DNA from: Luteibaculum oceani
GTDB lineage: Bacteria; Bacteroidota; Bacteroidia; Flavobacteriales_D; Luteibaculaceae
NCBI RefSeq assembly: GCF_007995015.1
Contig: NZ_VORB01000006.1
Coordinates: 124,001 to 188,000, forward strand
DNA length: 64,000 nt
Direction of reading: 5' to 3'
Below, piece after piece: positions 21,101 through 56,034 of this stretch (positions are counted from its first letter, which is position 1; each line of letters starts with the position of its first letter). Position numbers and translations under genes: made by a program. The notes below the pieces were generated by a model. It was given only the letters and a program-made list of their open reading frames with translations, searched no databases and had not been told where the DNA came from.

Positions 21101-23076
21101 ATCAGCCAGAGGAACTTAAAATTACTAATGTTCAGATTAGCAATGCATCCTGTTCAGGACTTTGCGATGGTGAAGCCAAGATTGAGGTTCAGGGGGGAAC
21201 GGCTCCTTTTACCTACAGCATTCAACCAAGTTTAGGAACAACTTCTTTTGATGGGGTAGCGACTTATTCAGGCCTTTGTGGTGGAAATACCTTTGTTGTT
21301 TTCATATCCGATGCCAATGGGTGTACTGTAGATACAGCCATCACAATTAGTGAGCCTACAGCAATTTCAGTTATAGACAGTATTGTTCCTGCAAATTGTA
21401 ACCAAAGCAACGGAGCTATTTATTTAAACACAATATCGGGTGGAAGTACACCGTATTCATTTTTGTGGAGTAATAATGCATTAGACACCCATTTGGTAAA
21501 CGTGGTACCAGGTAGCTACTCCCTAGATATTACCGATGCCAACGGTTGTACTTACTCTTTCCCCTACAACATTGATAACATAGCCGGACCTAGCACTAAT
21601 CTTTTTATGGATTCGATCTCTTGTAGTGGGGGATCCGATGGTAAAGCATGGGTTCAAATAGTAGGGGGGACAAAACCTTTTGTTGTGCTTTGGAGCAATG
21701 GCTCATCTAAAGATACGGTTAACAATTTGTCAGCTGGATTAATAGAGGTAAGTGTTGTAGATTCTGCTGGGTGTGAAGCCCTAGACAGTATACAGATTTT
21801 GGCTCCCACTCCGGTAATATTATCTGATATTGTCGATACCTTGCTTTGTACCAATGAAATTTATCAGGGGAGTTTTATAGTCACGGGAGGTAATGGGACA
21901 AATAATTACCGCTTCGAGATAAATGGTATAACGCAAAGCACGGCTAATTTCAGTTTGGCAGATAGCGGTTTGTACCTGGTAAGGGCTTTCGATAATAAGA
22001 ATTGTCCCTCGAATACTATAGACTTTCAGGTTGCCAAAAGAGGAGTACTGCAAGTTTCCATACCTAAACAAGACAGCATTTGTCCGGGAGATAAAGCATG
22101 GGTAAGTGCAGATGTGCAGGGTGGAAAACAACCCTACCAGCTTAATTGGAATTCGGGCGAAACCCAAATTGGCTGGATGTATCAATCGAGCCCCACGGAT
22201 AGCGGTTCCGCAACAACCAAGTTGTGGGTAGTGGATGCATGTAACGATGTGGATAGCGCGGTAAGTGCCATAGATTTTTACCCTAGGCCAATAATTCAGC
22301 CTCTTATTTTACCCAATTCGGGGTGTGAACCTCTAACTAGCAACTTCAGTTTGCCATTAAATACCTTTGGCGAGGTTAAGTGGTTTGTAAATAGGAAGTT
22401 GGTGAGTAGGGAGAACGTATTTAACCACGAATTTGTATCTGCAGGTTCTTATGATATCGGTATTGAGGTTATTAGCAATCAAGGATGTGAAAACTCCCTG
22501 TTTTTAGAAAAGGAAATTGTGGTTTATCCTAACCCTTATGCGGATATTTCTATTAATCCCAGTCGTTTGAGCTTAATAAATAACGAGGCATTTTTAGGGC
22601 TTTCTAGCACTTATAAATTGGCAAAAGCTTTTTGGAGCATTTCAAATGAGCTGGGCGATACCATCATTACTACTTCTGGATTACAGCCCTTTGTAGTTTT
22701 TCCAAAAATTAAAGGGGATTACGCCGTAAGCGCAAGCTTCGAAACGGAATTTGGTTGCTTGGGTCAAAGCCACGCTTTTATTACGCTTGCCAGCGAAGAT
22801 ATCCTGTATATACCTACCGCTTTTACTCCTAATGGAGACGGGGTAAACGATGCTTTTGCCATAGAGGTTGTGGGAGTAGAACCTTCTGCTTTTAGTGTAC
22901 ATATTTTCGATCGATGGGGAGAGGAATTATTCAGTAGCAAGGATCCATTTTTTAAGTGGGATGGTAGCTACCTGGGGGAACTATGTAAGGGGGATGTTTA
23001 TGTTTGGGCTATTCGCTATAAAACACTAGATGGAAAACAAAAGAACCTAAGTGGAAGGGTTACCCTGGTTCGTTAA
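18178..23076 (+). CDS. Giant adhesin-like protein with choice-of-anchor L, SprB repeats and T9SS type B domain
   Basis: The 1632-residue protein has a signal peptide (cleavage near residue 25). Residues ~35-260 form a choice-of-anchor L domain (FKYVFGSDEYPEYVGSSFND, ISGPG, HFVLAIADASDGCWDSSVFL). A Calx-beta-like segment follows (GVDYRFLKDSMVI, ~280-365). From ~370 to 1400 there are many PKD-like and SprB repeats with the core C-x-G-x-S/D-G ... GG-x-x-P-Y/F ... Y-x-V/L-x-x-x-D-x-x-G-C. The end carries AFTPNGDGVNDAF, FDRWGEELF and WDGSYLGE, the gliding motility-associated sorting domain. SprB-like repeats act in surface adhesion and gliding. Its stop overlaps the stop of the convergent glycosyltransferase gene by four bases. 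Confidence 0.93.
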   Translation: MLVRDICLYLVLVVGYIGNTPLIQAQLNVTASNNAAQMAQLLAGQGVVVKNATLNCAGTAAGTFDGGVNALNFTLDEGIVLGTGNVTNANAGGLLCLGTDHGRPGYAPLNSIANATTQDACILEFDVEVTTSTLEFKYVFGSDEYPEYVGSSFNDAFGFYISGPGIAGIQNIGVLPGGGGAPITINTVNNGDTDIGPCINCEFYRADMSSQTQLDGTTSVLTATASVIPCETYHFVLAIADASDGCWDSSVFLEKSSLVSVGVDMTEPVVSGNIGPGRIYENCDSAVYTFHLPNPVLSDYVFEVAIKGTAQNGVDYRFLKDSMVIKAGEQSASYTILPLTDSIVDPGETVEICILDPCTKAELSCETVTIEELEAEITEEQNICYGDSVQLQVSENVNYNYSWSPGNSLSCTDCHNPIAFPNDTTTYFVTFSDQGCSLVREVTVNVAAPSLPTLADTTACIGATKSVDVSTPGFDNYLWTPEYGISSSSSPSVTFTVLDSAVSYMVIATNDLGCELTEEITITPFPAVEATLFPKDVLCFGDASGEIDVVVHSSSPIDSFKWQDGSFAADRVDLFAGDYEVELVDINGCKLILDTVVNQPDTALFVEALQLVPSRCGGPSGRAEGVAFGGTEPYQFQWSQGGDQSISESLLPGVYELTVIDANGCTASDTVEIKADFSDQKDAEIIPFGPFCAGSETFQIQTLMTGGVFSGPGVDSWGLFDPSAAGEGVHAIVHEIVDGYCSDRDTFFVEVSSSFQADINPINPPCALEEMVQLSSVTNGGLYWGTGILDSAFARFYPSHAGPGKHWIYHLVQGECGELDSMEIEVIAPDTGEIVNLPSFCPAGDEAPLVATPNGGTWSGLGVNQQVMFNPRNLGSGRYQVQYIPAAACRIPVDTFVTVVDTLKLTSDVDSTTCFLGSDGSVTLEIMGGLAPFSFDWDPAITSSTSSASNLGAGSYTVQVIDSLGCNAQHAFFVHQPEELKITNVQISNASCSGLCDGEAKIEVQGGTAPFTYSIQPSLGTTSFDGVATYSGLCGGNTFVVFISDANGCTVDTAITISEPTAISVIDSIVPANCNQSNGAIYLNTISGGSTPYSFLWSNNALDTHLVNVVPGSYSLDITDANGCTYSFPYNIDNIAGPSTNLFMDSISCSGGSDGKAWVQIVGGTKPFVVLWSNGSSKDTVNNLSAGLIEVSVVDSAGCEALDSIQILAPTPVILSDIVDTLLCTNEIYQGSFIVTGGNGTNNYRFEINGITQSTANFSLADSGLYLVRAFDNKNCPSNTIDFQVAKRGVLQVSIPKQDSICPGDKAWVSADVQGGKQPYQLNWNSGETQIGWMYQSSPTDSGSATTKLWVVDACNDVDSAVSAIDFYPRPIIQPLILPNSGCEPLTSNFSLPLNTFGEVKWFVNRKLVSRENVFNHEFVSAGSYDIGIEVISNQGCENSLFLEKEIVVYPNPYADISINPSRLSLINNEAFLGLSSTYKLAKAFWSISNELGDTIITTSGLQPFVVFPKIKGDYAVSASFETEFGCLGQSHAFITLASEDILYIPTAFTPNGDGVNDAFAIEVVGVEPSAFSVHIFDRWGEELFSSKDPFFKWDGSYLGELCKGDVYVWAIRYKTLDGKQKNLSGRVTLVR

Positions 23077-33319: not shown

Positions 33320-35413
33320 TTAATGTTTTATGTAACTCTTAATCGCAGTATTTCCTCTGTTGGTATGAAGTAGAAGAATGTAATTTCCCTTTTCTAGCTT
33401 CGAAACATCCACTGAGTTTCCTTTTGTTCGTACGGTAGTAAGTTTTCTACCTGTTGGATCAAAAACATCTACCTGTTCAATGGGTTCGTCGCTATCAATA
33501 AATACTATTCCGTTACCAGGATTGGGATAAATGCCGACTGAAGTGGTGTTTAATTCCTTTATGCCAACCGTATTCGAAATTTGTGTGATAGCAGTGTTGG
33601 TAATAATCGGTGGGTTTTGGTAGAAGAAAATATTAGCCTTATTTCCAATTTGATCCCCAAGTTGAAGTGTTTTTACTGGCTCTATGTAGAAGTTTAAGTG
33701 ACCGTTGCTACCCACGTAGTCTGTACCCGAATCTGGGAGCATTATATTATTGAAATACCATTTTAAAATGCGGCCATCCATCTCAAAGTCATAATCGTGG
33801 GAAGCAGTTCCAAGGTGGAAAGTTTCTAGATTCAGTTTGTTTGAAAGCGTATCGGTAACTAGGATGTTAAACGCCGTATCGTTTCCAGTATTTTGGAAAC
33901 GTACATGGTAACTCATTAGCGGAGGCTGAGTTTGTAGCTCAGAGGGCTTTATGCCCTTATGAGACACCTGTTTATCGTTTGGGTCGTAAGAGTTTCTTAT
34001 GAGTACATTATGGTCTTCGGTAAAAGTTTCTTGAGGAGAGAAAAAGTCGATTCGAGTGTTTACATTTTCTCCCATGATTGCTGTTCCAAGCACATCCGAA
34101 TGAACTAGAAAGGATTTACTTTCATTGAACCCAATGGATACGTTGGTCCACAAAATTTGTGAATCCGAATTGGAGGCAGCATTGGCAGAATTCGAATTGG
34201 CAATTTGTCGATACCCATTGCTACCTAGGTTAGGGGTAGACCAAATCAGATTCCCAGATATGGGTGCACCCTCATTTCGAACACTGATGTATTGGAAAAA
34301 TCCTTTTTGAGGTTGTTGTTTTCTTGCCCATCCGCTTGAATAAATTAAAATATTGGCGGGCTCAACTTGTAACCTTAGTTCTGCACGCGCGCTGTTATTA
34401 TTTGCTGAGAACTGAAAAGAGATGTCTTTTTGGTTTGGGTCGCACGCTTGGGCCCGGTATCCTTGGTCTGCTATGGTTACTTTTCCGCTGCCAGTACCAA
34501 AGTATGTTTCAGAAAAAGTACCGTATTCATCAGACCAAAAATATTTCGTGCCAAAATCTCCTGTGGATTTCAACATCATTTTTCCCGATGGGAAGGTCAC
34601 GCTACAAGAGTCATCTTTACTTACTCTAATATCCCCAGTTAGGGTGCTAACGATTCCACCCGAATAATCCTTTCTAATTAAAATGGTTTTTAAATGAACA
34701 GCTTCGTAGGGTTGGTAAGTAGGATTGGTGCCACAAGCACATTGAATTTCAATGGCCATAAACCGCAGCTCTGTACTGTCCCATGGAATTGAATCTAAAG
34801 TTACCGTAGTGTCTTGATTAAACTGTCCTACCTGCATCCAGTTTCCGCCGTTCGCATCCCTAATTTCCTTTTGAAAAATTGGGGTAAAAGTGTTTGGGAG
34901 TCGGAGGTAATTTCTAATTTCTGGACTTTGAAGCACATAGGTTTTGGAAGTGGTGTCGTTTGCATCAACCAAAGTTTCACCGGTAATTTCGGTAAGGTAC
35001 GGGGCCTTGCAGGCCTCCGTTTTAAGCTGTGGTAACGGCCGTACCGAGAATTCCCAGGATAGGGTGTCTGGAATGTGTTTACAGGTGCTGTCCTTCCATA
35101 CAAAGCCCTTAAAATTATTTCCTGAGTAATGCATTAAAGTGTCAGGAAAATTATTTGAAAATGAAAATGAGGTTTCTTGGAATAGCAGGTTTGAATCTGT
35201 TGGGCTAGTATACTCGTAAAAGGACCATACCATTTTATCACTTTGGTTTAAATCTGCATTTATTGATATCCGAGAAAAGCTCAAGCCCCTATTCTCACAT
35301 ACAGAAACCGTGGTGTCATGCATGAACACATTTTTTAAATAAATCGTATCACACTGCGATTTTGCATTTAGGATAAAAAACAATAAGGATAGGATGGTAA
35401 GTAGGATCCGCAT
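33320..35413 (-). CDS. Secreted T9SS type A protein with DUF11/DUF7619-like domain
   Basis: The 697-residue protein has a signal peptide (MRILLTILSLLFFILNAKSQ). A cysteine-containing beta-rich region of unknown role follows, then a DUF11/DUF7619-like conserved domain near residues 480-610 (YDPNDKQVSHKG, YHVRFQNTGNDTAFNI, VTDTLSNKLN). The end is a type A sorting domain (VGIYPNPGNGIVFID, VDVFDPTGRKL, LEKGNYILLLHT, ending IKSYIKH). It is exported through T9SS and anchored or released at the cell surface. No catalytic motif is visible. It has its own terminator and appears to be a single-gene unit. Confidence 0.88.
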   Translation of the reverse strand: MRILLTILSLLFFILNAKSQCDTIYLKNVFMHDTTVSVCENRGLSFSRISINADLNQSDKMVWSFYEYTSPTDSNLLFQETSFSFSNNFPDTLMHYSGNNFKGFVWKDSTCKHIPDTLSWEFSVRPLPQLKTEACKAPYLTEITGETLVDANDTTSKTYVLQSPEIRNYLRLPNTFTPIFQKEIRDANGGNWMQVGQFNQDTTVTLDSIPWDSTELRFMAIEIQCACGTNPTYQPYEAVHLKTILIRKDYSGGIVSTLTGDIRVSKDDSCSVTFPSGKMMLKSTGDFGTKYFWSDEYGTFSETYFGTGSGKVTIADQGYRAQACDPNQKDISFQFSANNNSARAELRLQVEPANILIYSSGWARKQQPQKGFFQYISVRNEGAPISGNLIWSTPNLGSNGYRQIANSNSANAASNSDSQILWTNVSIGFNESKSFLVHSDVLGTAIMGENVNTRIDFFSPQETFTEDHNVLIRNSYDPNDKQVSHKGIKPSELQTQPPLMSYHVRFQNTGNDTAFNILVTDTLSNKLNLETFHLGTASHDYDFEMDGRILKWYFNNIMLPDSGTDYVGSNGHLNFYIEPVKTLQLGDQIGNKANIFFYQNPPIITNTAITQISNTVGIKELNTTSVGIYPNPGNGIVFIDSDEPIEQVDVFDPTGRKLTTVRTKGNSVDVSKLEKGNYILLLHTNRGNTAIKSYIKH

Positions 35414-40629: not shown

Positions 40630-42503
<1,874 letters not shown>

Positions 42504-42504
<1 letters not shown>

Positions 42505-43094
42505 TGGTAATCGTCATTTCGAATGAAACCGAGGTTGATGACGAAATGACTACCGTAAATCAACTTTTTGAGGGGGGCTTAGACCGGTTTCATTATCGCC
42601 GGTCTGCCTTCAACTCAGAGCGTTTTAAATTGTTCCTGAAAGGAGTAAAACCAGAGTACCACAAAAAGATTAGTGTCCATCTAGGTTCTTTTTGTTATGA
42701 TATCCCCCCGGGTGTGGGTGTTCATTATAAAGGAGATTATGCTGGAGATCGGTTTGTTGATAGAATACAAAGTGCTTCAATTCATTCGGTTCAAGAATTG
42801 AATACTCCTGAAAGGAGGGGAGAAAGTTACTTTTTGGTGGCGCCAGTTTTCCCAAGTATATCCAAGGTAGGATATGGACTTAATGAAACGGTGAAAGGCG
42901 ATTTTGAGGGTAAACGCTTTGATAATAAAAATTTGATTGCACTTGGTGGTATTGATGCGACTACGGTTCAGAATCTTGGAGCGGTATGGAGTGGAATCGC
43001 ACTGAAAGGAAGCATTTGGAAAGCAACAAATCCTAGCGATAGGATCACTTTGTTTAAGAAAATAAAGCAAAAATGGGAGCAAAATCGGCATTAG
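42504..43094 (+). CDS. Diverged ThiE/TenI-like paralogue
   Basis: The 196-residue protein resembles a thiamin phosphate synthase barrel: RFHYRRS near the start, SVHLGS, FLVAPVFPSISKVGYG (matching the G-P-I/V-F-x-T-x-T-K phosphate region) and LIALGGID near residue 150. It lacks the INDR-type pyrimidine-site motif and the GVHLGQED motif that the true ThiE downstream carries in usual form. It may act like TenI, a thiazole tautomerase, or be a subunit; catalysis as ThiE is doubtful. It starts inside the thiC stop codon and ends 22 bases inside thiD. Confidence 0.8.
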
Positions 43095-43783
43095 TTATAG
43101 CAGGATTCGACCCCTCTGGAGGGGCAGGCTTGTTAAGTGATGTGGCAATTTTTGCAGGAAAATCCATTGATGTAAAGTCTTGTGTTACTTGCAACACCTC
43201 CCAAAATTTCACCAAGTGTTATTGGGTAGAACAGCTGCCTGAAAAGCAAATTTTAAACCAGCTAAACCACCTATTGGAGGACTTTCGCTTTGATGGAGTT
43301 AAAATTGGAGCCTTTCCGAATCTTAATTGTCTAAAAACTTGTTTGGATAGCATTAAAGAAAAGCAGCCCGGTATCCCAATTGTATGGGATCCGGTGATTA
43401 AAGCATCAAAAGGAGCCTCATTTGTTGGAGATATTAATAAAGAGGTCTTAATCGATATTCTGGGTAAAATAGACTTGATAACACCTAACCGGAGGGAGTA
43501 TAACACCCTTAAGGGAGTTTTGGGAATGGAATTGTCGGAGCTTACCAACACATTAGTAACCGGTTTTATGGTTACTGATACTCATATCACCGATGCACTT
43601 TTAAGTAAAAAAGAAGTATTGGAATTCACCAAAAATATGGTGCCAGGAAAAGATATTCATGGTTCTGGCTGTAAGTACAGTGCGCTCATTACGGCCCACC
43701 TGATCTTGGGAAATGATTTGGTGAATAGCATTTCGGAATCCAGCCAAGAAATGTATAACCTATACCAAACCATTCCATGTTAG
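43073..43783 (+). CDS. thiD: Hydroxymethylpyrimidine / phosphomethylpyrimidine kinase ThiD
   Basis: The 236-residue protein starts SALVIAGFDPSGGAGLLSD, typical of ThiD. It has IVWDPVIKASKG near residue 104 and the GSGCKYSALITAHL anion-hole and catalytic region near 197-210. It is about 30 residues shorter than most ThiD proteins (~265), with a compact middle. It phosphorylates the pyrimidine twice to the pyrophosphate used by ThiE. It overlaps its neighbours by 22 and 7 bases. Confidence 0.92.
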   Translation: MGAKSALVIAGFDPSGGAGLLSDVAIFAGKSIDVKSCVTCNTSQNFTKCYWVEQLPEKQILNQLNHLLEDFRFDGVKIGAFPNLNCLKTCLDSIKEKQPGIPIVWDPVIKASKGASFVGDINKEVLIDILGKIDLITPNRREYNTLKGVLGMELSELTNTLVTGFMVTDTHITDALLSKKEVLEFTKNMVPGKDIHGSGCKYSALITAHLILGNDLVNSISESSQEMYNLYQTIPC

Positions 43784-44400
43784 TATCTAGGCTGCATTAC
43801 ATATCGCAAGCACTAAATGGCTATAGTCATGCCGAAATGATAGAGCGTGCATTAGCGTCTGGGGTAGATTGGGTGCAGTTACGAGTTAAGAACGAACCGG
43901 AGGATTTTATTTTGAATCAAGCCCAGCAAGCAAGGGCCTTATGCAGTCGGTTTGGTGCAAAGCTTATTATTAACGATCATCCCGCCGTTGCCAAGGCCGT
44001 TGGTGCAGATGGAGTGCATTTGGGATTAAGTGATATATCGGTATCCGAAGCAAGAAAATTGCTTGGTGCAAAAGCCATTATTGGAGGAACCTGCAATACA
44101 TACGAGGACGTAAAAAGAAGAATAGCTGAGGGCGTAGATTATGTTGGGCTAGGGCCTTATAGATTTACCAAAACCAAAGAAAAATTGAGTCCGGTTCTGG
44201 GGTTGGATGGATACCGAAGCTTAATGAAATTTTTGGGAGAGGTCAATCCGCAAATTCCTGTAATAGCTATTGGAGGTATAACCATTGAGGATATACATCC
44301 ACTAAGGGATGCTGGAGTTCATGGGGTTGCATTGGCGTCATTAATTAACCATGCGGATGCCCCTGAAAAAGTGATAACAGAGATTAAAACGAAATTATAA
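43777..44400 (+). CDS. thiE: Thiamin-phosphate synthase ThiE
   Basis: The 207-residue protein has the ThiE motifs in order: WVQLRVKNE near 32-40, [27 protein letters not shown] near 63-89, [13 protein letters not shown] near 99-111, [16 protein letters not shown] near 121-136, and [14 protein letters not shown]. It joins HMP-pyrophosphate and thiazole phosphate to thiamin phosphate. It is the better ThiE candidate of the two in the operon. Confidence 0.95.
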
Positions 44401-44401
44401 T

Positions 44402-45178
44402 ATGAGCTTTTCAATAGGAGGAATAGAAATGGGCTCCCGATTATTATTGGGAACTGGTAAGTTTTCTTCAAACGAAAACATGGTTGCTGCTATTAAAGCA
44501 TCTGGAACGGAAATGGTGACGGTGGCTTTAAAGCGTGTTGATGCTAAAAGGAAGGAGCAGGATGAGCTGCTTGCCGCACTCAGATCAACCGGAGTCCGTT
44601 TACTGCCAAATACTTCTGGCGTTAGAACAGCCGATGAAGCTGTTTTTGCAGCGGAATTGGCCCGAGAGGCCTTAGAAACCGATTGGTTGAAATTGGAGAT
44701 TCATCCCGATCCAAAATATTTGCTACCCGATCCTATAGAGACTTTAAAAGCAACAGAGGTATTGGCTAAAAAAGGATTTAAAATACTCCCATACATCCAT
44801 GCCGATCCAGTTTTATGTAAAAGGCTGGAGGAGGTGGGAACTACCGCAGTTATGCCTCTTGGAGCTCCAATTGGAACCAATTTGGGAATAAAAACCAAGG
44901 AATTTATCGAGATAATTATAGATCAAGCTAAAGTTCCTGTAATTGTCGATGCTGGGATTGGTGCGCCATCTGATGCTGCCTTAGCTCTGGAGCTTGGTGC
45001 CGATGCAGTCTTGGTAAATACCGCCATAGCAGTTGCAGGAAATCCCGCCCAAATGGGAGAAGCCTTTAAGTTGGCAGTTGCATCAGGCGAATTAGCTTAC
45101 AAAGCTAAATTAGGGCCCAAACAGCTCTCTAAAAAAGCAAGTGCCTCATCACCTTTAACCTCGTTTTTAGATGTCTAG
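44402..45178 (+). CDS. thiG: Thiazole synthase ThiG
   Basis: The 258-residue protein starts [14 protein letters not shown] and has the Schiff-base region [15 protein letters not shown] with the conserved lysine (near residue 98). It also has [38 protein letters not shown] and [13 protein letters not shown] near the end. It condenses deoxyxylulose phosphate, dehydroglycine and ThiS thiocarboxylate to the thiazole. It begins one base after thiE ends and overlaps thiH by eight bases. Confidence 0.97.
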
Positions 45179-46295
45179 TTTCAGAGCTTTATTCGAAAAA
45201 TACAGTTGGGAAGAAATTCGGAACCAGGTTTACAGCAAATCTGCCGCGGATGTGGAAGCGGTTTTGGCCTCAGGCAAGGCAGATTTAGATGGCTTTTTAG
45301 CTTTAGTTTCTCCCGCCGCAGCCCCTTATTTGGAGCAAATGGCACAGTTAAGTCGAGAAATTACCTTAAAACGCTTTGGAAAAACGATTCAGCTTTTTGC
45401 CCCATTTTATCTATCGAATGAGTGCCAAAATATCTGTACCTATTGTGGGTTTTCTTTGGATAATCCCATTCGCAGGAAAACCCTAAACCCAATTGAAATA
45501 GAGAAGGAAATCAAGGCCATAAAGGATCTAGGTTTTCGACACGTGTTATTGGTTACCGGAGAGGCAAATAAAACAGTAGGTGTGGATTATTTGGAGCGAG
45601 CAATAAAGCAAATCCGACCGCATTTTGATAATGTTTCCATGGAGGTTCAGCCATTGGATCAACTGGATTATGAGAGACTGATTGAAGTAGGGCTTCACAC
45701 GGTTTTGGTTTATCAAGAAACCTATCATCAAGCCGACTATAAAAAGCACCATCCCAAAGGGAAGAAATCTAATTTTTGGTACCGCCTGGATACTCCAGAC
45801 AGACTTGGGAGAGCAGGAATATACAAAATGGGACTTGGGGCGCTAATCGGTCTAGAAGACTGGAGAATTGATTCATTTTTTGTGGCATTGCACCTCGATT
45901 ATTTGCAAAGAACTTATTGGAAAAGTAAGTACACCTTGTCCTTCCCGAGGTTGCGTCCATTTTCAGGTGGATTGGAACCTAAAGTAGAGATGAATGATGC
46001 CGAATTGGTTCAGCTCATTTGTGCGTACCGAATTTTTAATCCTGATGTGGAATTATCGCTTTCGACTAGGGAAACTCAAAAGTTTAGGGATAACGTTATT
46101 AAAATGGGGATAACCACTATGTCAGCGGGGTCTAAAACCAATCCTGGGGGTTATGCTGTGGAGCCTCAATCTTTAGAGCAATTTGAAATATCAGATGAGC
46201 GCTCACCTGCACAGATAGTAGAAATAATAAAAAATGCTGGTTACGAGCCCGTTTGGAAAGATTGGGACCAGTCGTACCAGCAGTTTTCAGTGTAA
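45171..46295 (+). CDS. thiH: Radical-SAM tyrosine lyase ThiH
   Basis: The 374-residue protein has the radical SAM motif C85-QNI-C89-TY-C92, then [17 protein letters not shown] near residue 121, MEVQPL, and [18 protein letters not shown] near 184-200. It cleaves tyrosine to dehydroglycine for ThiG, so the pathway is the anaerobe/enterobacterial ThiH route and not ThiO. It is the last gene of the operon; a convergent minus-strand gene follows 15 bases later, and no terminator is visible. Confidence 0.97.
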
Positions 46296-46309: not shown

Positions 46310-46891
46310 TTAGAGGTAAAAGATAACCTCAAACCTTGGGTTTAATACGTTGTAATCAATTCTCAGGTTGCTTTCCTTAATCTTGGAGTCCTTAATTTTA
46401 GTGGAACTATAATTTAAGGTGGCAATATTCAGGCCAAGAGATGCTCGCTTGGCAATAAAGTACATCAATCCAACTTTTAGGTTGGCGTCGTATTCAATAG
46501 GATGTGGAGTAAATCCATTTAGGTAAAATACTTTTCCAAGGTCTAGCTGAGCAATGTACAGTACTCTGTCGGTAAAGTTTCCGTGTAACCTACCAAAAGC
46601 CCCAATGAACATGGTTTTCTGACTGTCTTTATTTTCAGCGTTGTTCCTTAGGTTTTTAACCTTTTCTACGTCCACTCGGTAATCCAATAAAACTCCCGTT
46701 GCAATTCTGTCGGATACCATAAGTCCAAACAATGGGCTTATAGATAACAATCGGGTTTGGTTTGATATAACAGAGTCTTCTTGGGTCGATCCATCGTAAA
46801 ACAATCCACCACCTAATAAAAGTTGGCCTTTAGATTGACTAAAGGAAATAGAACAAAAAAGGGCAAAAACTAGAGTTAAAAATAAACGCAT
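46310..46891 (-). CDS. Small outer-membrane beta-barrel-like protein
   Basis: The protein (193 residues from the ATG at 46891) has a signal peptide (MRLFLTLVFALFCSISFSQ), then GQLLLGGGLFYDGS and alternating strands such as LLSISPLFGLMVSDRIATG, ending in EVIFYL. The shape fits an 8-stranded OmpA/PagP-like or PorT-like barrel. I do not recognise the family. It is the last gene of a long minus-strand block and lies convergent with thiH. Confidence 0.65.
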   Translation of the reverse strand: MRLFLTLVFALFCSISFSQSKGQLLLGGGLFYDGSTQEDSVISNQTRLLSISPLFGLMVSDRIATGVLLDYRVDVEKVKNLRNNAENKDSQKTMFIGAFGRLHGNFTDRVLYIAQLDLGKVFYLNGFTPHPIEYDANLKVGLMYFIAKRASLGLNIATLNYSSTKIKDSKIKESNLRIDYNVLNPRFEVIFYL

Positions 46892-46991
46892 ACGGCAAGG
46901 TTTAAGTGAATGCAAGAAAAGAAATTAAAACCTTATTCACTATGGCGGCTTTAGAACTTTTGAACAGCTTAAAGGGGAAAGCTATTGTAAT

Positions 46992-47342
46992 TTATTGTCC
47001 GAATAGCTTTTTGTAAAACACGGCAATTAAAACCACAGCTCCCACCACTAATATTTCTAAATGGTCGCTAATGGGTACCGGAGGATTACCTCCGTTCTTG
47101 CGAGGGGCAGGAGTGGAATTTCTCTTTTTCTTTTCATTGAATATGGATTCGTCCAAATCGTAGATTCTATGTTGATTTTCAAAATTTTGTAATGGGCTAT
47201 TTGACTCCTCAAGCATTTGGGCTGGGGCTTCAAGAATAACCGGATCCTCTATGTAGGCATCTTGAGCATATAATTTTGGATTAAGAAAAATGCATAGAAG
47301 CATTGCAGAGGATAGGCTCCAACGTAAAGTAGGTTTTAGCAT
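46992..47342 (-). CDS. Small protein with PID-CTERM-like sorting tail
   Basis: The 116-residue protein has a signal peptide (to about residue 26, LYAQ), a hydrophilic Glu/Asn-rich middle, a KKKRNSTPAPRKNG basic-proline linker, and a three-part tail: PPVPISDHLEIL (87-98), a single hydrophobic helix (about 95-110) and KKLFGQ. This layout resembles the PID-CTERM tails known from Flavobacteriia, although the usual D is S here (PIS). It is 31 bases downstream of the 969-residue secreted-protein gene and probably co-transcribed. What processes the tail is unknown. Confidence 0.65.
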   Translation of the reverse strand: MLKPTLRWSLSSAMLLCIFLNPKLYAQDAYIEDPVILEAPAQMLEESNSPLQNFENQHRIYDLDESIFNEKKKRNSTPAPRKNGGNPPVPISDHLEILVVGAVVLIAVFYKKLFGQ

Positions 47343-47373
47343 GGTGGTAAAGCAGGTTCCTAGGTGTGGTTTT

Positions 47374-50283
47374 TTATTTGTTCAGGTAATGGGTGGTATT
47401 TTGTTGGTTTCCGTTCTTAAATTGAATACTGCTCAAAATAATTTCGGCCGATAAGTTATGTACAGGTATGGCGAATTTGGTTGTGCTTATTTGTTTTGTC
47501 AGGATTTCTTTTCCGTCAACCGAGTACAAGCGGACGCTTTCGGGTTGTGAATTCTCAGATAATTCGAAATGCAATGTTCCGTTATGGAACCACGTTTTAA
47601 TAGAGTTTTCAATTTGGTTAGTTGACACAATTTCAGTGGTGGGCGAGGTGTACCTTCTGAAGGTTAAGAAGAATCTGTTTTTAGACTTATGGCTATCCTC
47701 AAAAAATATGGAGGCGTCTTCTCTCCAGAGGTTCCAGCTTTCACCTGTTTCAGTATCCAGTAGGTAAGGCTCTAATCCACCCATTTTGTCGAACTGCGAT
47801 TTTTCTATGTGTATTTGGTAATTACCAGTATGGGGGGTAGCAATGGAAAGGGGGATTTTTACTTTTGGATTTACCATTCCTACTGTTTGTATGCCCAGCA
47901 CATGCCCTTCGTAGTTTAAAGTTTGAATGTGGAAACTCCCTGCATCTGAGCCTAGAGCATCCCAGCCCCAATCGTACAATGGTGTGCAGTTTTCGGCTAT
48001 GGCAAATAGGGTGGTATAGCGCTTATCTTGGTCGATAATTTGTAAATGGAATTTAGCTAAAATGGGGTTTGCCCTACCGCTTTTAAACTCACTATTAACT
48101 CCACCTCGCATACTGTTTTTAAAACTTACCGTTTGCGACGTAGTCCCTGTAAGGCATACATAAAATCCCTGTCCCGATGCGATGTAGGTGTTAGCTAAGG
48201 TTTGAGAATTATCCGTGGATCCGGCAACGGTAGCTCCTGCATTATTTATGGTTATCTGTTGGTTTTCCTCGGTGTAAGAGTAATTGGGATTGTGATTAAA
48301 TAGGTTGATAAATCCATCGAGAACAGCACTATTTTCCGTTAGAAAATCTGCTGCATTAATGGCACTAGGATAGGGGTTTCCTAGTGCGTTGTAATTGCCT
48401 GTGGTTCCATTGGTTTCAGTGGCAATGGTTATGGTTCCATTGTTTATTTCTCCCGAAAAGGTATGCGTATTTACTCCAGTTAAGGCATACCCCTTTCCAA
48501 CAGTTAAATATTCGCTTCCGCTTACCCATGACCAATCTGAGGTGGAAGTTCCAGGGGCATTTAATTCGTATTGCCTGCTTGCCCCTATGTCAGACATTTG
48601 CTCCGAAACCACCGGAGTAGACCAAAAATTGTAAAGTCCACTAGCCTGACCATCGGGTTTGTTTCTGGTGATATTAAAGGTGCCAGAATTACTAAGTGTA
48701 CTTCCGGTAGCTTGTACAATGGCTCCATCGTCGGCGACATTAAAGATTCCGGTATTGGATAGGTTTCCAACCATATTTAGGGCCTTATTAGAGGCTATAT
48801 AAACTGTTCCGTTATTGGTGAAGTTATTGGAATGAACAAATTGACTATAACCCGTTTGAGCTTGGATGTTGCCCAGTGTAAAAGTGTTTCCAGCGTCAAT
48901 TGTAATGCCTGGAAAAATACCCGCGCCAGTGTGGTTGGGGACATTCAGGGTGGTGGTATCACCGCCAGTAAAAAGGATAGAAGGAGTGTTGCCACTATCA
49001 AAAATGGTGTTGTCGTATGCTAGGTTATAGGTTAAGCTACCTCTAACTTTATAGGATCCAGCAAAGGTGAACTCGTGGTCTTCCTCAAAAAAGTCATCTC
49101 CTGTATCAAAAGTTACGTTGTAGTAGTTTGCAATGGGTACATCAAAATTGTAGGAAAATGTAGGCTTGTAAATTATGGTCGATCCCGTGTAAAGCGAATC
49201 GAACCTTACTCCTGGGAAATCTGCTGGGTCATAGGTGTCTGGACCAAAATTATCTTCATCTAAAACATACACTTCCCATGTAGCATTTTCCTTTACAATA
49301 AGCTCAAAGGAATAATTTATGTTGTCGTCTTGTACAGTAAAAGTGACACCGCTATCAATGATGAAGTATGAATTGTCACCCTCAATAAATAGATCGCTCC
49401 ATGTACTTGAGCCTAGGGTAACATCACGGTCGATTATAAAATGCTGGTTGTCGCCAACAAACTCTCCGAAATTGTTATTGGTTGGAGTTTCGCTAATGGG
49501 GGTGCCGTCTGAAAATGGTGTCCAGCTTTCTTCATCCGTTATATCTGTTTCTCCTGTATTTAGGTAAAAAGCCTCGTCAAAAAAGGTGATATGGATATCA
49601 TCTATAGCTAAGCCGTGCGAAGTAGCGTTATTATTAGGGTTAGGGTATTGCCATTTAAAGATAATTTGTTCGCCATCTGCAAGCCCATCGGGTAGTTGGA
49701 TAAGGTAGGTTTCGGTAGTAGCATTTGCATTCCCGTCAAGAGCTCTCGGGTTACAAGAGAGCGTACCGCATCCTACAGAGGACACAAAGTCTAAAACATT
49801 AATATCGCTGAATGAGGGGCTAGTTAAATCGGTGATATTGTTTCCAATGGCATAGGAAAAGTCTATTTTTTGCGATCCATTGGTAGCGCCAACTCTCCAT
49901 TGTTCTCCCTGGTAGCTTACGTATATTTTGTAAAGGGTTTTGCCGGTGTTATTCTCAAATAACCAGCCAAATACATAATTCGAAAATTGATCGTCAATAC
50001 AGCCTAAAGACCGGTCGCCGTCACCCGTTGATCCATAGCTATGATAGCTTGTAGTGGTGCTAGATCCATCAGAGCTGATATTACTGCTTTCTTCAGAGCT
50101 GTTGTTATAAATTAACCAGCCTTCTGCTAATCCAGAGAAATCTCCAGAACCACTGCTGGGTAAGCCATTAAAATCTTCGGTGTGAGTGGCTCCAACAGTA
50201 GTGATACTTTTTTGTCCGAAAACGGATGGACCTATGATAATCCATCCAAGAATGGCAAGGTAAAGGTTGAAGGATTGGTTCAT
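47374..50283 (-). CDS. Large secreted protein with diverged T9SS-type C-terminus (969 residues)
   Basis: A signal peptide (to ~23) is followed by a jelly-roll-like N-terminal domain (HTEDFNGLPSSGSGDFSGL, ATSHGLAIDDIHITFF; to ~230). A beta-helix or autotransporter-like run of NNGTVYIASNKALNMVGNL-type repeats covers about 430-560. A C-terminal region (~560-870) has FWSTPV, GKGYALTG, NYNALGNPYPSAINAADFL and SFKNSMRGG and is shared with the 1479-residue protein. The last 80 residues look like a degraded type A sorting domain (SVRLYSVDGKEI), but end in an unusual polar tail. Probable cell-surface or exported structural protein; no enzyme motif seen. Confidence 0.85.
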   Translation of the reverse strand: MNQSFNLYLAILGWIIIGPSVFGQKSITTVGATHTEDFNGLPSSGSGDFSGLAEGWLIYNNSSEESSNISSDGSSTTTSYHSYGSTGDGDRSLGCIDDQFSNYVFGWLFENNTGKTLYKIYVSYQGEQWRVGATNGSQKIDFSYAIGNNITDLTSPSFSDINVLDFVSSVGCGTLSCNPRALDGNANATTETYLIQLPDGLADGEQIIFKWQYPNPNNNATSHGLAIDDIHITFFDEAFYLNTGETDITDEESWTPFSDGTPISETPTNNNFGEFVGDNQHFIIDRDVTLGSSTWSDLFIEGDNSYFIIDSGVTFTVQDDNINYSFELIVKENATWEVYVLDEDNFGPDTYDPADFPGVRFDSLYTGSTIIYKPTFSYNFDVPIANYYNVTFDTGDDFFEEDHEFTFAGSYKVRGSLTYNLAYDNTIFDSGNTPSILFTGGDTTTLNVPNHTGAGIFPGITIDAGNTFTLGNIQAQTGYSQFVHSNNFTNNGTVYIASNKALNMVGNLSNTGIFNVADDGAIVQATGSTLSNSGTFNITRNKPDGQASGLYNFWSTPVVSEQMSDIGASRQYELNAPGTSTSDWSWVSGSEYLTVGKGYALTGVNTHTFSGEINNGTITIATETNGTTGNYNALGNPYPSAINAADFLTENSAVLDGFINLFNHNPNYSYTEENQQITINNAGATVAGSTDNSQTLANTYIASGQGFYVCLTGTTSQTVSFKNSMRGGVNSEFKSGRANPILAKFHLQIIDQDKRYTTLFAIAENCTPLYDWGWDALGSDAGSFHIQTLNYEGHVLGIQTVGMVNPKVKIPLSIATPHTGNYQIHIEKSQFDKMGGLEPYLLDTETGESWNLWREDASIFFEDSHKSKNRFFLTFRRYTSPTTEIVSTNQIENSIKTWFHNGTLHFELSENSQPESVRLYSVDGKEILTKQISTTKFAIPVHNLSAEIILSSIQFKNGNQQNTTHYLNK

Positions 50284-50539
50284 GTCAGATATAATGGTTG
50301 GATTAATATCTGAATAGAAGAGTGCTAAAGCAACAGGTTTTACTGTATTCCTTTTTCGACTTTTGAATCCTTATATATGTCCGTTGGTCTGGTTTTTTGG
50401 TTAGAGTGTCCAATAAGTAATCACTTTGTCCTTTTTGGAATGGTTTTAAAATTGGATTCCTATTTTGACTTACACTTCAATTAATAAATAGCGGTCATTT
50501 AATAATTGAACTAAATTGATGTGTTAGCTGGATTATAAT

Positions 50540-53500
50540 TTAGTTTGCCCGCATTATAGCCTCCTGGCCATTTTTCATTTTTAGATGAATCCAAGGGTAG
50601 TTTTTCCAGGATTCCTTATAGTAATGGATTAATTGTGGCTTGGGTATCCGCCGAAAGTGCCCCATGAGGTTGAAAATAGTGGCTTCGATAACCTGTTCTT
50701 CATTTTTCATTAGCCATTGTTCAGAAAGTGTGGCGATATTGGTTGTGGGGCTTTTGGGAAATTCAAGAAAGACTAGACTAAATCTGTCGTTCGCTGTACC
50801 AGCTTCCATAAAAAAGGTGGTAGCATTAACCTGATTAAGGGTTGTGCTAGTTTCCAAATATTCATCCACCAGATATACCTTTACATGCTCTTCTGGGATT
50901 TTGAAATCGAAATAATTTCCAATGGAATAGGTACCGGTAATGGGTGTAGAAATTGATATCGGGATGCGGGTTAAATGTTTGGCAAAGGGCACTGCGAGGA
51001 TACTTTGTTTAAGACCATGATTTATGAAAGCCACAGAAAAGCTGTTTTCAAAGGCCTTGGCATCATAACCTCTCTCATAGCTAAAATCGAAGTTTTTATT
51101 TTGGGCCAACAAACAAGATGTTGTATCTCCTATCTCGTTAGCTAGAAAAATCCAGTTTAGGTAGGTGTTATTTTTATGAGCACTTTTAAAATTGCTGTTA
51201 TTACCACTCCGCATGGAATTGGTAAATTGAATGTTGTAAGTTCCCGTAGGTAAATTACTATTGCTCTCTACCATAAATCCCTGAAATGAACTTATGTGGG
51301 TATGTGCATCGATTTGGGTTCTGGTGTAATTGCTGGTCCCCACCTGGTTTACAGCAATATATTGTTTACTGCTTTCATAATTTTCTTCGCCATTGTAACT
51401 CCATAAATAAAGGGTGCCATCCAATACGGGTTGGTTATTTATGTCGTTTAGGAATTTCCGGGCATTAATTGCCGAGGGATAGGGATTACCGATTAAGGAG
51501 TAACCAGATATTCCATTTTCAACTGGAAAAGAAACTTTAATGGTATCGTTATTAATCATGCCCTTCGCGGTAAAACCTTGGGCTCCGTAAACGGCGTATC
51601 CTTTTCCAGGAATCATTTGGGAATTATTAATAATTGGTAAGTAACCTTCACTTGTTGAAGATCCTGGGGTGTACTCATAAATCCTGCTACCCTTTAAATT
51701 TCCTGAAGGACCAACCATGCAGCTGTCATTGATTTGAACCGGAGAACTCCAGTAGCAATATTGGTTTGCGAATTCTAAGGGTATGGTACGGGTGATTTGA
51801 AAATTGGCGGTACCAATATTAACAGACGAGGTCAATTGTATCCAGGAGCTGTTATTTGGGAGCATTACTTGCGAGGAACTATCGAACTGGCAAATTCCCC
51901 ATAGAACCAAGCTGTCTGATTCGGGTATGGATAAACTCGAATTTGGCTTTAAAATCAAACTGTCATTAAAACTAATATTCCCTAAAAGGTAGGTAGCCTG
52001 CTCTCCAAATACAACGGAAGCTTTTGGCCCAAGTCTAAAGGCTGCATCTCCTCTTATTTTTCCGTTTTTTGATTCCAAAATGAGTCTCCGGGAGCTCGGC
52101 GGGTCAAAAACAAAGCTATCCCCAGCAATACAGTTTATACTTCCACCTATTTTAAGGTTAAGTGGAGCCACAATTTTTAATGAACCAGCGTTAACGATTA
52201 AGCTATCCATTTTGCATTGCGAAGTACCACTAACAATACTTGTAGGACCGGATTTTTCGTAATAAAAATTGGAGTAATTCCTACCGCTAATAGAGGGACT
52301 TCCCGAGCTTTGATTGAAATGAAAATTGGATCCAGCCTTGAATTTTACGGCGTTTATCTCGGTGGATGGGCCAAAAGGGTTAGGGGAGGAAGGGCCAAGA
52401 CTGTGATAGGAGGAGAGGGAATCGAAAATCACCGAACCATTGTAAGAAGCGCTTTCCCCAAAGGGGTGTTTTTTACCTTGCGTTGAAGAGAGGGCTAAGT
52501 AAATAAAACTCGAACCAGGATGGAATCGGAGGCTATCTTTCTGCATTAATAATTGATGTGCCTGACTGTTTTCGAAAAAGATGTGGCCAAATATATTTTG
52601 TGAGCCCCCATTTAAAACAAGAGTTGTTGGGTAGTTCCCCTTTAGTTTTAAGCTACAATTGTCACAGATTTCTAAACTGTTTTCTCCTTCGGCCAAATGT
52701 ATAATACCGTCTTCGTTAGCCTGATAAATTTCTAGCGTACTAGCGTTTACAAGCCGTAAATTATTTAGGGTAACCGAGCTGGGATTTAGCCATGATGTGT
52801 TCGAGGAAATGATAATGCTATCTTCCGTACTAATAAACTCTCGGTGAGGCTGGTAGTTAAGGGCATCATGGTAATCTAAATTTCCGGTTGCATTGGTCCA
52901 AGTGTATGTTTTACCACTGCCTTCAGAGATAGAAATGGTGATGTCGTCAATGTCTACATTCCCAGATTGTTTTATGTAATACCAGGCAAATTGTATCAGA
53001 CTGTCGGCGGGATTTAGACCAATGTTTATCCAGTTTTCATCATTAGCTCCAGGAAGTGGGGTGAGGCTATCGATAATTATCCAACTCTGGTTTTTTCTCT
53101 TTCCCAAAATAAAGAGTGCAGATCCACTTGTTACCCCTTGTCCGCGCACCCAAAATCTTATGTTGCTTGCTACGTTGCAAAGTTCGGGGCTTATTATGCT
53201 ATCTAGGCTGTGGTCCAATTTTAGGGATCCGGGGCTATACGATGAAGATCCGTCATTGCTTATCCCAACAAACTCCCAACCTGGAGGTACCGTGTCGAAA
53301 CCGTGTTTAAAATCTTCGTTAATTCCTAGTCCACGGGAACTGCAGCTTATAAAATGGGTGTCCAGATAATTTTTTGAATACACCCCATTTACTTTAGAAA
53401 AGAATCTGGCGAAATAGGTGCTGTTGGGATTTAAATTACTCAGCGTAATCATACTGTCCGAACCACAATACATGGGGTAAATTCCAGTATTGGGCTGTAT

Positions 53501-54979
53501 TTCTTCCCCCGATGAAAAGCTAGTATTAAATTCAAAATTGTTACTACATTGAAGGATACGATCCACAGGTAATGATTCCCTCAACAATAGGCACCATTCT
53601 CCATCGGGAATAGGAGGTTTAATTTTTATCTTATTCCCGCAATTGCTCCAAAGCTTAACGGGGATGAAATCTTCATTTTGGGGAGTACATCTTCTTCCTA
53701 CTAGGGCGATGTTATCGATATTCCAGTTTTCATCTACATGATTGGATTGACTGATTACCATAAGTTCCAGCGAGTCGGTATTTGGTTCAATACTTATTTT
53801 TACCAACCCGAAACCATCCCCAAATGCATCTCTGTTCCCACCGGCTGCTGGGGTATATAATCCTGTTATCAAACTATCGTGGGATTGAGCTTGAAAATTA
53901 CTGTCGGTATAAAAACTCCATTTTGCATTGTTTAAACCTTGGATTTGCATAATGGATGAATCGTTTAAACTGGGATATTTGAGAATGATTTTGAGATAGT
54001 CGTCGCTATCCAATCCGTTTCCACCACTTTTAGAGCTTGCGCTAATTCTAAGAAACAAAGCCGAATTTGTAATATTTCCAATGTAAATAGGGGAGAGGCA
54101 TAAGGTGTCATTACTGTTACTAGATTGCCAAGAATTGGCACCTTTTAACACGCGCTGGCTGGCAGGGCTGTCAGTGGCTCCCGTATTAGAAGAAATGTTA
54201 TCGTAACCCTGATTCAGATTCCAATTGTCTATGGTTTCAAATCCCTGAAAATAGACTGCTTCGGTAGCGGTAATTGAAATATTATCTAATGCTATTTCAT
54301 CTCTTGAACCCGAACCGCTTAGGTCATCTAGGTACCAACCGATTTCAAAGATTGAATCTTGCAGAATGGAAATTCCTTCTAGGCTATAGGAGACTTGAAC
54401 TGCAGACCATTCAGGGCTACTATCCTCATTACCACCTGTCGATACCGTATGTTCAGGTAAATATTGAAAATCGCCCTGTTCAGTTTTGAAAAAAGGAGTA
54501 ATGCTGCTTGCGTAGTTTTCATTGTTATGGACCCAAATGGTGAAGCTTAAGCGTAAACTACCGATCCTTCCTCCACAGCCATTGGTGCCGCGGAGAATTA
54601 TGCTTCCTGGAGTACAGTCATTTGAGCTCGCCTGAATCCCTAAAGCATAATTACCAGAGGATGTTTCAAAACCATAGATTCCACCCGTGGAGGTGTTTCC
54701 TGAGGACCATCCTCGGGCATAATCGCCAGAGCTTTCATTTCCGCCAAATGAGGAGTTTCCGTCGCTAAATCCGGTGAAACGCCAAGCATCAGAATCTAGA
54801 TATCCAATTTGCGGATCGGGATGGAGACCATAACCTAGGAATGCTCCCTTGTTTACACCTGTTTGGGTGCTGTCAAAATCAATGGTTATTGTGTTATTGA
54901 ATGAGGGTAGGAATACTTGTGCATGTCCAGGAGAGGAGAGTAGCACTATTCCAAGCAGTGGTAGAATACTTGGTTTCAT
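50540..54979 (-). CDS. Giant secreted protein related to its neighbour (1479 residues)
   Basis: A signal peptide ends near residue 20 (SSPGHAQ). Two or three jelly-roll/MAM-like domains follow, each ending in a phrase like IALDNISIT, NIDNIALVG or DIDDITISI. A middle stretch of short repeated beta-strand elements (about 690-1050) follows. The C-terminal ~400 residues share YWSSPV, GKGYAVYG, YSLIGNPYPSAINARKFL and FTNSMRSG with the next gene downstream. The end (ATIFNLMGHFRRIP...MKNGQEAIMRAN) is a strongly diverged type A sorting domain. Both genes are on the same strand, with 256 bases between them. Confidence 0.85.
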   Translation of the reverse strand: MKPSILPLLGIVLLSSPGHAQVFLPSFNNTITIDFDSTQTGVNKGAFLGYGLHPDPQIGYLDSDAWRFTGFSDGNSSFGGNESSGDYARGWSSGNTSTGGIYGFETSSGNYALGIQASSNDCTPGSIILRGTNGCGGRIGSLRLSFTIWVHNNENYASSITPFFKTEQGDFQYLPEHTVSTGGNEDSSPEWSAVQVSYSLEGISILQDSIFEIGWYLDDLSGSGSRDEIALDNISITATEAVYFQGFETIDNWNLNQGYDNISSNTGATDSPASQRVLKGANSWQSSNSNDTLCLSPIYIGNITNSALFLRISASSKSGGNGLDSDDYLKIILKYPSLNDSSIMQIQGLNNAKWSFYTDSNFQAQSHDSLITGLYTPAAGGNRDAFGDGFGLVKISIEPNTDSLELMVISQSNHVDENWNIDNIALVGRRCTPQNEDFIPVKLWSNCGNKIKIKPPIPDGEWCLLLRESLPVDRILQCSNNFEFNTSFSSGEEIQPNTGIYPMYCGSDSMITLSNLNPNSTYFARFFSKVNGVYSKNYLDTHFISCSSRGLGINEDFKHGFDTVPPGWEFVGISNDGSSSYSPGSLKLDHSLDSIISPELCNVASNIRFWVRGQGVTSGSALFILGKRKNQSWIIIDSLTPLPGANDENWINIGLNPADSLIQFAWYYIKQSGNVDIDDITISISEGSGKTYTWTNATGNLDYHDALNYQPHREFISTEDSIIISSNTSWLNPSSVTLNNLRLVNASTLEIYQANEDGIIHLAEGENSLEICDNCSLKLKGNYPTTLVLNGGSQNIFGHIFFENSQAHQLLMQKDSLRFHPGSSFIYLALSSTQGKKHPFGESASYNGSVIFDSLSSYHSLGPSSPNPFGPSTEINAVKFKAGSNFHFNQSSGSPSISGRNYSNFYYEKSGPTSIVSGTSQCKMDSLIVNAGSLKIVAPLNLKIGGSINCIAGDSFVFDPPSSRRLILESKNGKIRGDAAFRLGPKASVVFGEQATYLLGNISFNDSLILKPNSSLSIPESDSLVLWGICQFDSSSQVMLPNNSSWIQLTSSVNIGTANFQITRTIPLEFANQYCYWSSPVQINDSCMVGPSGNLKGSRIYEYTPGSSTSEGYLPIINNSQMIPGKGYAVYGAQGFTAKGMINNDTIKVSFPVENGISGYSLIGNPYPSAINARKFLNDINNQPVLDGTLYLWSYNGEENYESSKQYIAVNQVGTSNYTRTQIDAHTHISSFQGFMVESNSNLPTGTYNIQFTNSMRSGNNSNFKSAHKNNTYLNWIFLANEIGDTTSCLLAQNKNFDFSYERGYDAKAFENSFSVAFINHGLKQSILAVPFAKHLTRIPISISTPITGTYSIGNYFDFKIPEEHVKVYLVDEYLETSTTLNQVNATTFFMEAGTANDRFSLVFLEFPKSPTTNIATLSEQWLMKNEEQVIEATIFNLMGHFRRIPKPQLIHYYKESWKNYPWIHLKMKNGQEAIMRAN

Positions 54980-55011: not shown

Positions 55012-56034
55012 TCAATTCAGATTTAAAAGCACATAAACGGGAAGATGATCCGATGGACCGCCGATATAATTCGGTCCGGCATAGGTTCTAAAGGGTGATC
55101 CCTTGTACTTGTTATTCTTTTGCTGCAATAGGTGTTTGGAGCTATAAATATCCGCGAATTGGTAATTAAAATGATTAGATGAGAATATCTCTTCACTTAG
55201 GAGAATTTGATCAAACAGATACCAATCACCCTTGTAAACGATGGTTCCCTTTCCTTGTTTACTTATTTCTTCAAACGGATTAAAGAATTCTCCAGCATCC
55301 AAATCTTCTGGTTTAGATTCAGTAGAAAAAAGTTCCTTGATGGATTTGTTTAATGGGGTATCATTAAAGTCCCCCATAATAATATGTGTTCCGGAATTTA
55401 AGTTTTGTTTCAGGGTATTGGCAACAAGAAGTCTTTTATATTCTGTTTCATTAACACCTCCTCGTCTCGATGGCCAGTGGTTTACCCAAATAGTAAGCTC
55501 TTCCCCGTTTGATAGCCTAACAGTAGTCTTTAAAATTTCCCTAGTTTTCCATTGTCCTGATGGGATGGAGATGAAATCAATTTCTTTCGCCTCAACATAA
55601 TGGGAATGGTACAGTAGTGCCACATCAATTCCTCTGGGATCGGAGGAGTTTCCATGAACAATTTGATAGTTGTATGGTTTAAGTGGCTTGGAGTTAACCA
55701 AATCTTGAAGAACTCTTAAATTCTCCACCTCTGCCAAACCAATTAATGCTGGTGCGTCTTCTGGGTTTCTATCTCCAATTTCTGAAATAGTCTTAGCTAA
55801 AGCGGAAATTTTAGACTCGTACTTTTCTTCCGACCAGGCTAAACGGCCATTTGGTGTAAATTCTTGATCATTGACTCCCGGATCATCAACGGTATCAAAC
55901 AAATTTTCGACGTTGTAAAAAGCAATGGCAATGGTTTCTCCTTTAGCGTCTATATTTGGTTGACTCGTATTGCTTTGAGAATTACAAGCTGTAAAAAGAA
56001 ATATTAGCTGAAGGAGGTGCCAGACCATTTTCAT
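55012..56034 (-). CDS. Endonuclease/exonuclease/phosphatase-family lipoprotein
   Basis: The 340-residue protein has a lipoprotein signal (LFTAC). A DNase I-like fold follows with FYNVENLFD near residue 38, LIGLAEVENLRVL near 92-104 (catalytic Glu), SDPRGIDVALLY, WVNHWPSRRGG near 183, IIMGDFNDTPLN near 218-229 and GGPSDHLPVYV near the end (catalytic His). It probably cuts extracellular or periplasmic DNA or a phosphoester. Its ATG is three bases from the previous gene end, so it belongs to the same run. Confidence 0.9.
   Translation of the reverse strand: MKMVWHLLQLIFLFTACNSQSNTSQPNIDAKGETIAIAFYNVENLFDTVDDPGVNDQEFTPNGRLAWSEEKYESKISALAKTISEIGDRNPEDAPALIGLAEVENLRVLQDLVNSKPLKPYNYQIVHGNSSDPRGIDVALLYHSHYVEAKEIDFISIPSGQWKTREILKTTVRLSNGEELTIWVNHWPSRRGGVNETEYKRLLVANTLKQNLNSGTHIIMGDFNDTPLNKSIKELFSTESKPEDLDAGEFFNPFEEISKQGKGTIVYKGDWYLFDQILLSEEIFSSNHFNYQFADIYSSKHLLQQKNNKYKGSPFRTYAGPNYIGGPSDHLPVYVLLNLN

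Follow-up and report, generated by a model that had tools for sequence, protein, structure and literature searches.

The closest described counterpart of the locus reported here is the PID-CTERM system, which comprises the PID-CTERM family (NF046080), exosortase X (XrtX, NF046081) and the XrtX-associated membrane protein (NF046082). Like its substrates, the small protein of our locus has a signal peptide, a PxPI(D/S) motif, a helix and a basic end, and an exosortase of the same branch is present in the genome; unlike them, its tail lies below the reach of the family model and lacks a Cys pair, and the exosortase is neither adjacent nor above the XrtX cut-off. GlyGly-CTERM and MYXO-CTERM tails sit on the working protein itself. 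As far as the consulted part of their descriptions goes, these systems, with rhombosortase and myxosortase, have a comparable tail, built of a motif, a helix and a basic end, that is cut by a membrane protease, but the proteases are others and here the tail is on a microprotein beside a giant protein. A further relative is XrtF of Flavobacterium johnsoniae with the exosortase F system-associated protein (Fjoh_1448, Fjoh_1449); in the available part of the report, xrtF and its neighbour gene have a role in surface colonization and the substrates are deferred to future work (PMC10936215). On the side of the giants, the nearest described proteins are RemA and RemZ of F. johnsoniae (8gl6, 8gl8), which are T9SS type A substrates. 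We found no literature that links exosortases or PID-CTERM proteins to T9SS giants or gliding adhesins, and the name XrtX led to unrelated uses of the letters only.

The window, a stretch of 64,000 nucleotides of Luteibaculum oceani (contig NZ_VORB01000006.1, positions 124,001 to 188,000), contains on its minus strand the genes for a 1479-aa giant (50540..54979), a 969-aa giant (47374..50283) and a 116-aa small protein (46992..47342), with the places and lengths given in an earlier sequence-only reading. The gap between the 969-aa giant gene and the 116-aa gene is 31 nt. On the same strand, 32 nt ahead of the giants, lies the gene for a 340-aa protein of the endonuclease/exonuclease/phosphatase family with a lipoprotein-like start (55012..56034; PF19580, 2.7e-92), a putative operon member that is perhaps on the same transcript as the giants. 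Similarly, a gene on this strand for a possible outer-membrane beta-barrel of 201 aa (46310..46915; PF13505, 0.014, below cut-off), located 76 nt past the small gene, is perhaps on the same transcript as the latter. Promoter and terminator scans stayed at chance level. By gene reading, a thiamine synthesis cluster (window 40633-46295) adjoins the locus on the other strand, with thiH (TIGR02351) as its last gene. Four more T9SS proteins are encoded in the window (1789-7113, 7368-10781, 18178-23076 and 33320-35413), two of type B and two of type A over cut-off, and the GNPYP motif was found in none of these four.

The two giants have 393 aligned C-terminal residues in common (32% identity, E 2e-37, BLASTP), including the GKGYA, GNPYPSAINA and NSMRxG motifs by which the sequence-only reading had related them. 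This common region covers residues 1040-1420 of the 1479-aa giant (50720..51862) and residues 516-890 of the 969-aa giant (47614..48738), where GNPYPSAINA is located. The same reading had described the ends of both giants as T9SS-type but strongly changed. Neither giant matches a T9SS model in NCBIfam (including TIGR04183 and NF033708) at E<=1, yet when 42 C-terminal regions were aligned, those of the window's two giants and of 40 relatives, NF033708 (T9SS type C) matched 35 members and TIGR04183 (type A) 28. The profile of this alignment matches two solved T9SS structures over the whole length, RemZ at E 5e-138 and RemA at E 7e-134. When searched alone, the 969-aa giant matches RemZ (8gl8_D) over residues 423-959 (E 9.4e-12), and the 1479-aa giant gave no RemA or RemZ match by phmmer.

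In an AlphaFold model that covers the 430 C-terminal residues of the 969-aa giant (mean pLDDT 84.7), a sorting domain is predicted at model residues 354-429, with RemA (Z 11.4, 75 residues) and RemZ (Z 11.1, 73 residues) as the closest structures. In the full protein this changed T9SS sorting domain takes up residues 893-968 (47380..47607), and our own sorting-domain (CTD) model recognises it at E 1.7e-9. The prediction of a T9SS sorting-domain fold concerns the 969-aa giant only; nearly all rows of the structure search fell on the sorting domain, which gives little information on the GNPYP region. By eye, a near-invariant lysine (Lys1110 of RemZ) is replaced by Thr or His in the 969-aa giant and by Arg in the 1479-aa giant, a reading extrapolated from the RemZ alignment of the 969-aa giant and from the ends of the two giants; it fits the description of these ends as strongly changed. 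The role of this lysine is treated in the accessible part of PMC10994853. The RemZ match and the sorting-domain fold of the 969-aa giant thus resemble RemA and RemZ, from which the window's giants differ in missing the T9SS models, in the replaced lysine and in having a microprotein gene behind them. The T9SS translocon is present in the genome, with SprA at 2603 bits (cut-off 200).

Translation of the 116-aa gene gave all parts of a PID-CTERM protein, in agreement with the parts previously claimed for it. There is a signal peptide of about residues 1-27 that ends in LYA-Q (47262..47342, by eye), a basic and proline-rich linker KKKRNSTPAPRKNGGN at residues 71-86 (47085..47132) and, at residues 87-116 with the stop codon (46992..47084), a tail of PPVPISD, a hydrophobic helix and KKLFGQ. 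Pfam and NCBIfam gave no match for the protein, and the curated 25-position PID-CTERM model NF046080 (cut-off 26 bits) matched neither the protein nor its tail alone. Because this curated model was tried and gave no match, we class the protein as PID-CTERM-like and not as a PID-CTERM member. A Cys pair before the PID motif, present in 100 of 128 tails among the matches listed, is missing in the window protein; where it occurs it is often CWPPPC, a possible disulfide or attachment site. A search of 199 genomes of the order for a whole-protein orthologue gave none, and the weak matches there are not tail genes.

Against a model of 77 exosortase-adjacent tails the window tail scored E 22. A single-sequence search of 2,378 ORFs, a set enriched in tail loci, nevertheless showed a likeness to other such tails above chance: tail proteins took the six best places (E 0.004 to 0.1), the nearest being those of loci L045, which adjoins XrtX (E 0.0043), L219 (E 0.005) and L218 (E 0.033), together with that of the second tail gene of its own genome (E 0.0084). 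This second PID-tailed gene (contig C6, L217 8051-8326; 91 aa, PPPPPMPIDDYLWILALVGG) scores E 0.14 with the exosortase-adjacent model; it adjoins a 1110-aa kinase-like gene and no giant, which counts against the reading that we prefer below. A small protein of Flavobacterium aciduliphilum (L173 13174-13332) has the tail PPGFPIDENILVLVIACLVLGFYKIYHTKKAS and is a candidate for the kind of substrate used by XrtF in Flavobacterium.

The sequence-only reading had further remarked that a known processing enzyme is absent. This holds within the window, where no exosortase was found, and fails for the genome as a whole: contig C4 encodes an XrtX-like exosortase whose Cys, Arg and His are intact, and the idea that no enzyme is present was rejected on this ground. 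The protein (171 aa) is the single PF09721 match of the genome (32.3, cut-off 25.7) and scores over cut-off with TIGR04178 (57.2 bits, cut-off 23). With the XrtX model it reaches 132.6 bits over nearly the full length, under the cut-off of 170, and with the XrtF model, its point of likeness to the F. johnsoniae system, 81.6 bits (cut-off 90). Its Cys78 (86/86), Arg119 (86/86) and His138 (83/86), which we take to be catalytic, are conserved.

The operon around this exosortase (stretch L216) encodes, in this order, a GNPYAAPLD giant of at least 743 aa, a 1187-aa GNPYAAPIN giant, a 107-aa tail-like protein, the exosortase and a 167-aa membrane protein; the arrangement is that of the window locus with the enzyme added. 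The Cys-rich 107-aa protein (L216 8594-8917) has a tail-like end of FIPVGN, helix and KIRF, its gene overlaps both the preceding giant and the following exosortase, and it is likely the exosortase's own substrate. In a profile search of the genome, only three giants showed a RemZ-like domain reaching further than the sorting domain alone, namely the two of the window and one of this operon.

Tails were then sought throughout the class with a profile of seven tails (query A2), which includes the window tail and others encoded next to giants or exosortases; given this composition, matches in the own genome are not independent. It gave matches in 200 of 396 genomes. A candidate for a co-occurring membrane peptidase, for which a search had been proposed from the sequence, was found in the XrtX family: 186 of the 200 genomes with a tail have a match (E<=1e-5) as compared to 40 of the 196 without, a difference that is partly built in because the query contains tails beside XrtX. 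In the sample of the order, NF046080 matches 91 and XrtX 105 of 199 genomes.

The small protein could also be an uncut bitopic microprotein of the inner membrane that serves the export of the giants as a chaperone or docking factor on the periplasmic side, its tail only resembling PID-CTERM in having proline, a hydrophobic helix and lysines. The failure of the window tail with the PID-CTERM model, its E value with the exosortase-adjacent model and an operon without exosortase speak for this explanation; the best pairwise matches of the tail, however, are tails beside exosortases or giants, tail and XrtX strongly co-occur, and, among the matches listed, the exosortase-adjacent model still recognises 28 of the 39 tails that have no exosortase close by. 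We consider an uncut protein unlikely.

The surroundings of the tail genes were read at 129 loci, the best-ranked among the matches listed together with second copies in genomes with several matches. One of these, L186, duplicates L217 and was removed, leaving 128, and the XrtX-operon stretch was kept outside the count. Among these listed matches, 75 loci have their nearest upstream gene in the same orientation and no more than 250 nt away, and 8 have it in that orientation at a greater distance; at 26 it is read from the opposite strand, and at 19 the contig or stretch ends before it. Of the 75 close upstream genes, 57 end in TIGR04183, in comparison to 4 of 90 genes drawn at random from these loci (Fisher p 2.4e-23; among the matches listed). 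Our own CTD model recognised 46 of the 75 and 4 of 120 controls; all 120 random genes were scanned with this model and 90 of them with NCBIfam. A model of the RemZ-like domain, for which the window's two giants were part of the training set, matched 34 of the 75 and a further 9 ORFs out of a total of 1,037 examined. With either of our own models, 54 of the 75 upstream genes were recognised, at a median gap of 20 nt and in 21 of the 34 families with any tail locus. These counts support the recurrent association between small tailed genes and T9SS cargo that the sequence-only reading had put forward.

Additionally, an exosortase was located within 300 nt at 78 of the 128 tail loci, and at 36 the tail gene directly follows one gene and directly precedes an exosortase gene, all three on one strand (both among the matches listed). 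Like the window, 21 of the listed loci combine a giant and a tail with no exosortase in the surrounding stretch; XrtX occurs elsewhere in 18 of their 20 genomes, and the two genomes lacking it are incomplete (G248, 85%; G363, 80%). Two genomes (G344 and G330) have two giant-tail pairs each by our own sorting-domain model. At L218 and L219 the tail gene is directly followed by a giant of more than 1,900 aa, open at the end of the contig or stretch, and at L218 the gene ahead of the tail resembles an exopolysaccharide kinase.

Several of the opposite-strand upstream genes (26/128, among the matches listed) are by eye exopolysaccharide kinases, which counts against a partnership of tail protein and giant. 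The exosortase system might serve an exopolysaccharide or biofilm matrix, with the T9SS giants as merely co-regulated surface proteins; several tail loci lie, by eye, against Wzz/BY-kinase-like genes, and exosortases have been associated with exopolysaccharide in the part of PMC7468200 that was available. T9SS proteins are nevertheless the most numerous class among the direct same-strand upstream genes, and we regard a purely matrix-related function as improbable. More doubtful is the idea that one XrtX locus with a chance T9SS giant was copied as a unit and that its tail protein has no joint action with the giant: the same plan at both loci of the genome and the few families that supply many of the surveyed loci would suit it, but the pairing occurs in 21 families and at 21 loci without exosortase nearby, giant lengths differ widely, and the tail gene is ahead of the giant, not behind it, in L143, L218 and L219.

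The survey was also made starting from the giants, at 95 loci (77 named loci and 18 of the order). A tail gene directly adjoins the RemZ-like giant at 2 of them (L121 and L143) and lies about 6 kb off at a third (L173), which rules out the pairing for every RemZ-like giant. The concern that the small gene might lie away from such giants in other genomes was thus not borne out when starting from the tails, although from the giant side only these two loci show direct contact.

The explanation that we prefer, at about an even chance, is that the 116-aa protein is a PID-CTERM-like microprotein which is cut in trans by an exosortase and works with RemZ-like T9SS giants of the adhesin type. The recurrent gene order and the presence of a matching enzyme suggest that tiny protein, giant and exosortase act together at the cell surface. 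Gene order, the kinship of the giants, the recurrence of the pairing and the enzyme are observed here; the cutting, the carrier and the role with the giants are what we infer. The microprotein would be made together with the two giants, which would cross the outer membrane via the T9SS. Its signal peptide would bring it to the periplasm and its tail would hold it in the inner membrane, where the XrtX-like exosortase encoded on another contig could cut it at PxPI(S/D) and join the new end to a carrier. The mature peptide, of roughly 60 aa, may then work with the giants at the surface, be it as an anchor, an adaptor or a co-adhesin. The XrtX locus of this genome would have a satellite copy, minus the enzyme, in the window locus. 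The part of xrtF and its neighbour gene in surface colonization, as given in the available portion of PMC10936215, fits this mechanism but concerns another branch of the enzyme.

In favour of this preferred explanation we counted the pairing of 57/75 versus 4/90, the XrtX co-occurrence, the operon of the same plan, the conserved Cys78, Arg119 and His138, and SprA. Counted against it were the miss with NF046080, the E value of 22, the missing Cys pair, the XrtX score of 132.6 against 170, the 2/95 giant loci, the lack of a whole-protein orthologue and the failure of both giants with the T9SS models. The interpretation given in the sequence-only reading is partly supported: the recurrent pairing is upheld, the absence of an enzyme is not, and the small protein stays a candidate partner or anchor of the giant exported proteins.

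The statistically strong gene-order link between microproteins and T9SS giants provides a concrete partner candidate for exosortase substrates of Bacteroidota, and ties a sorting enzyme to the exported proteins among which gliding adhesins are classed. More speculatively, and with less confidence than in the explanation above, two sorting enzymes could contribute to one surface assembly of Bacteroidota, in which giants of the RemA/RemZ type are delivered via the T9SS and its sortase, while exosortase X attaches a co-encoded microprotein to a carrier at the surface and this microprotein tethers or arms its giant. If this is true, the exosortases of the phylum would act mainly on microproteins, and a single exosortase could serve several giant-microprotein pairs in trans.
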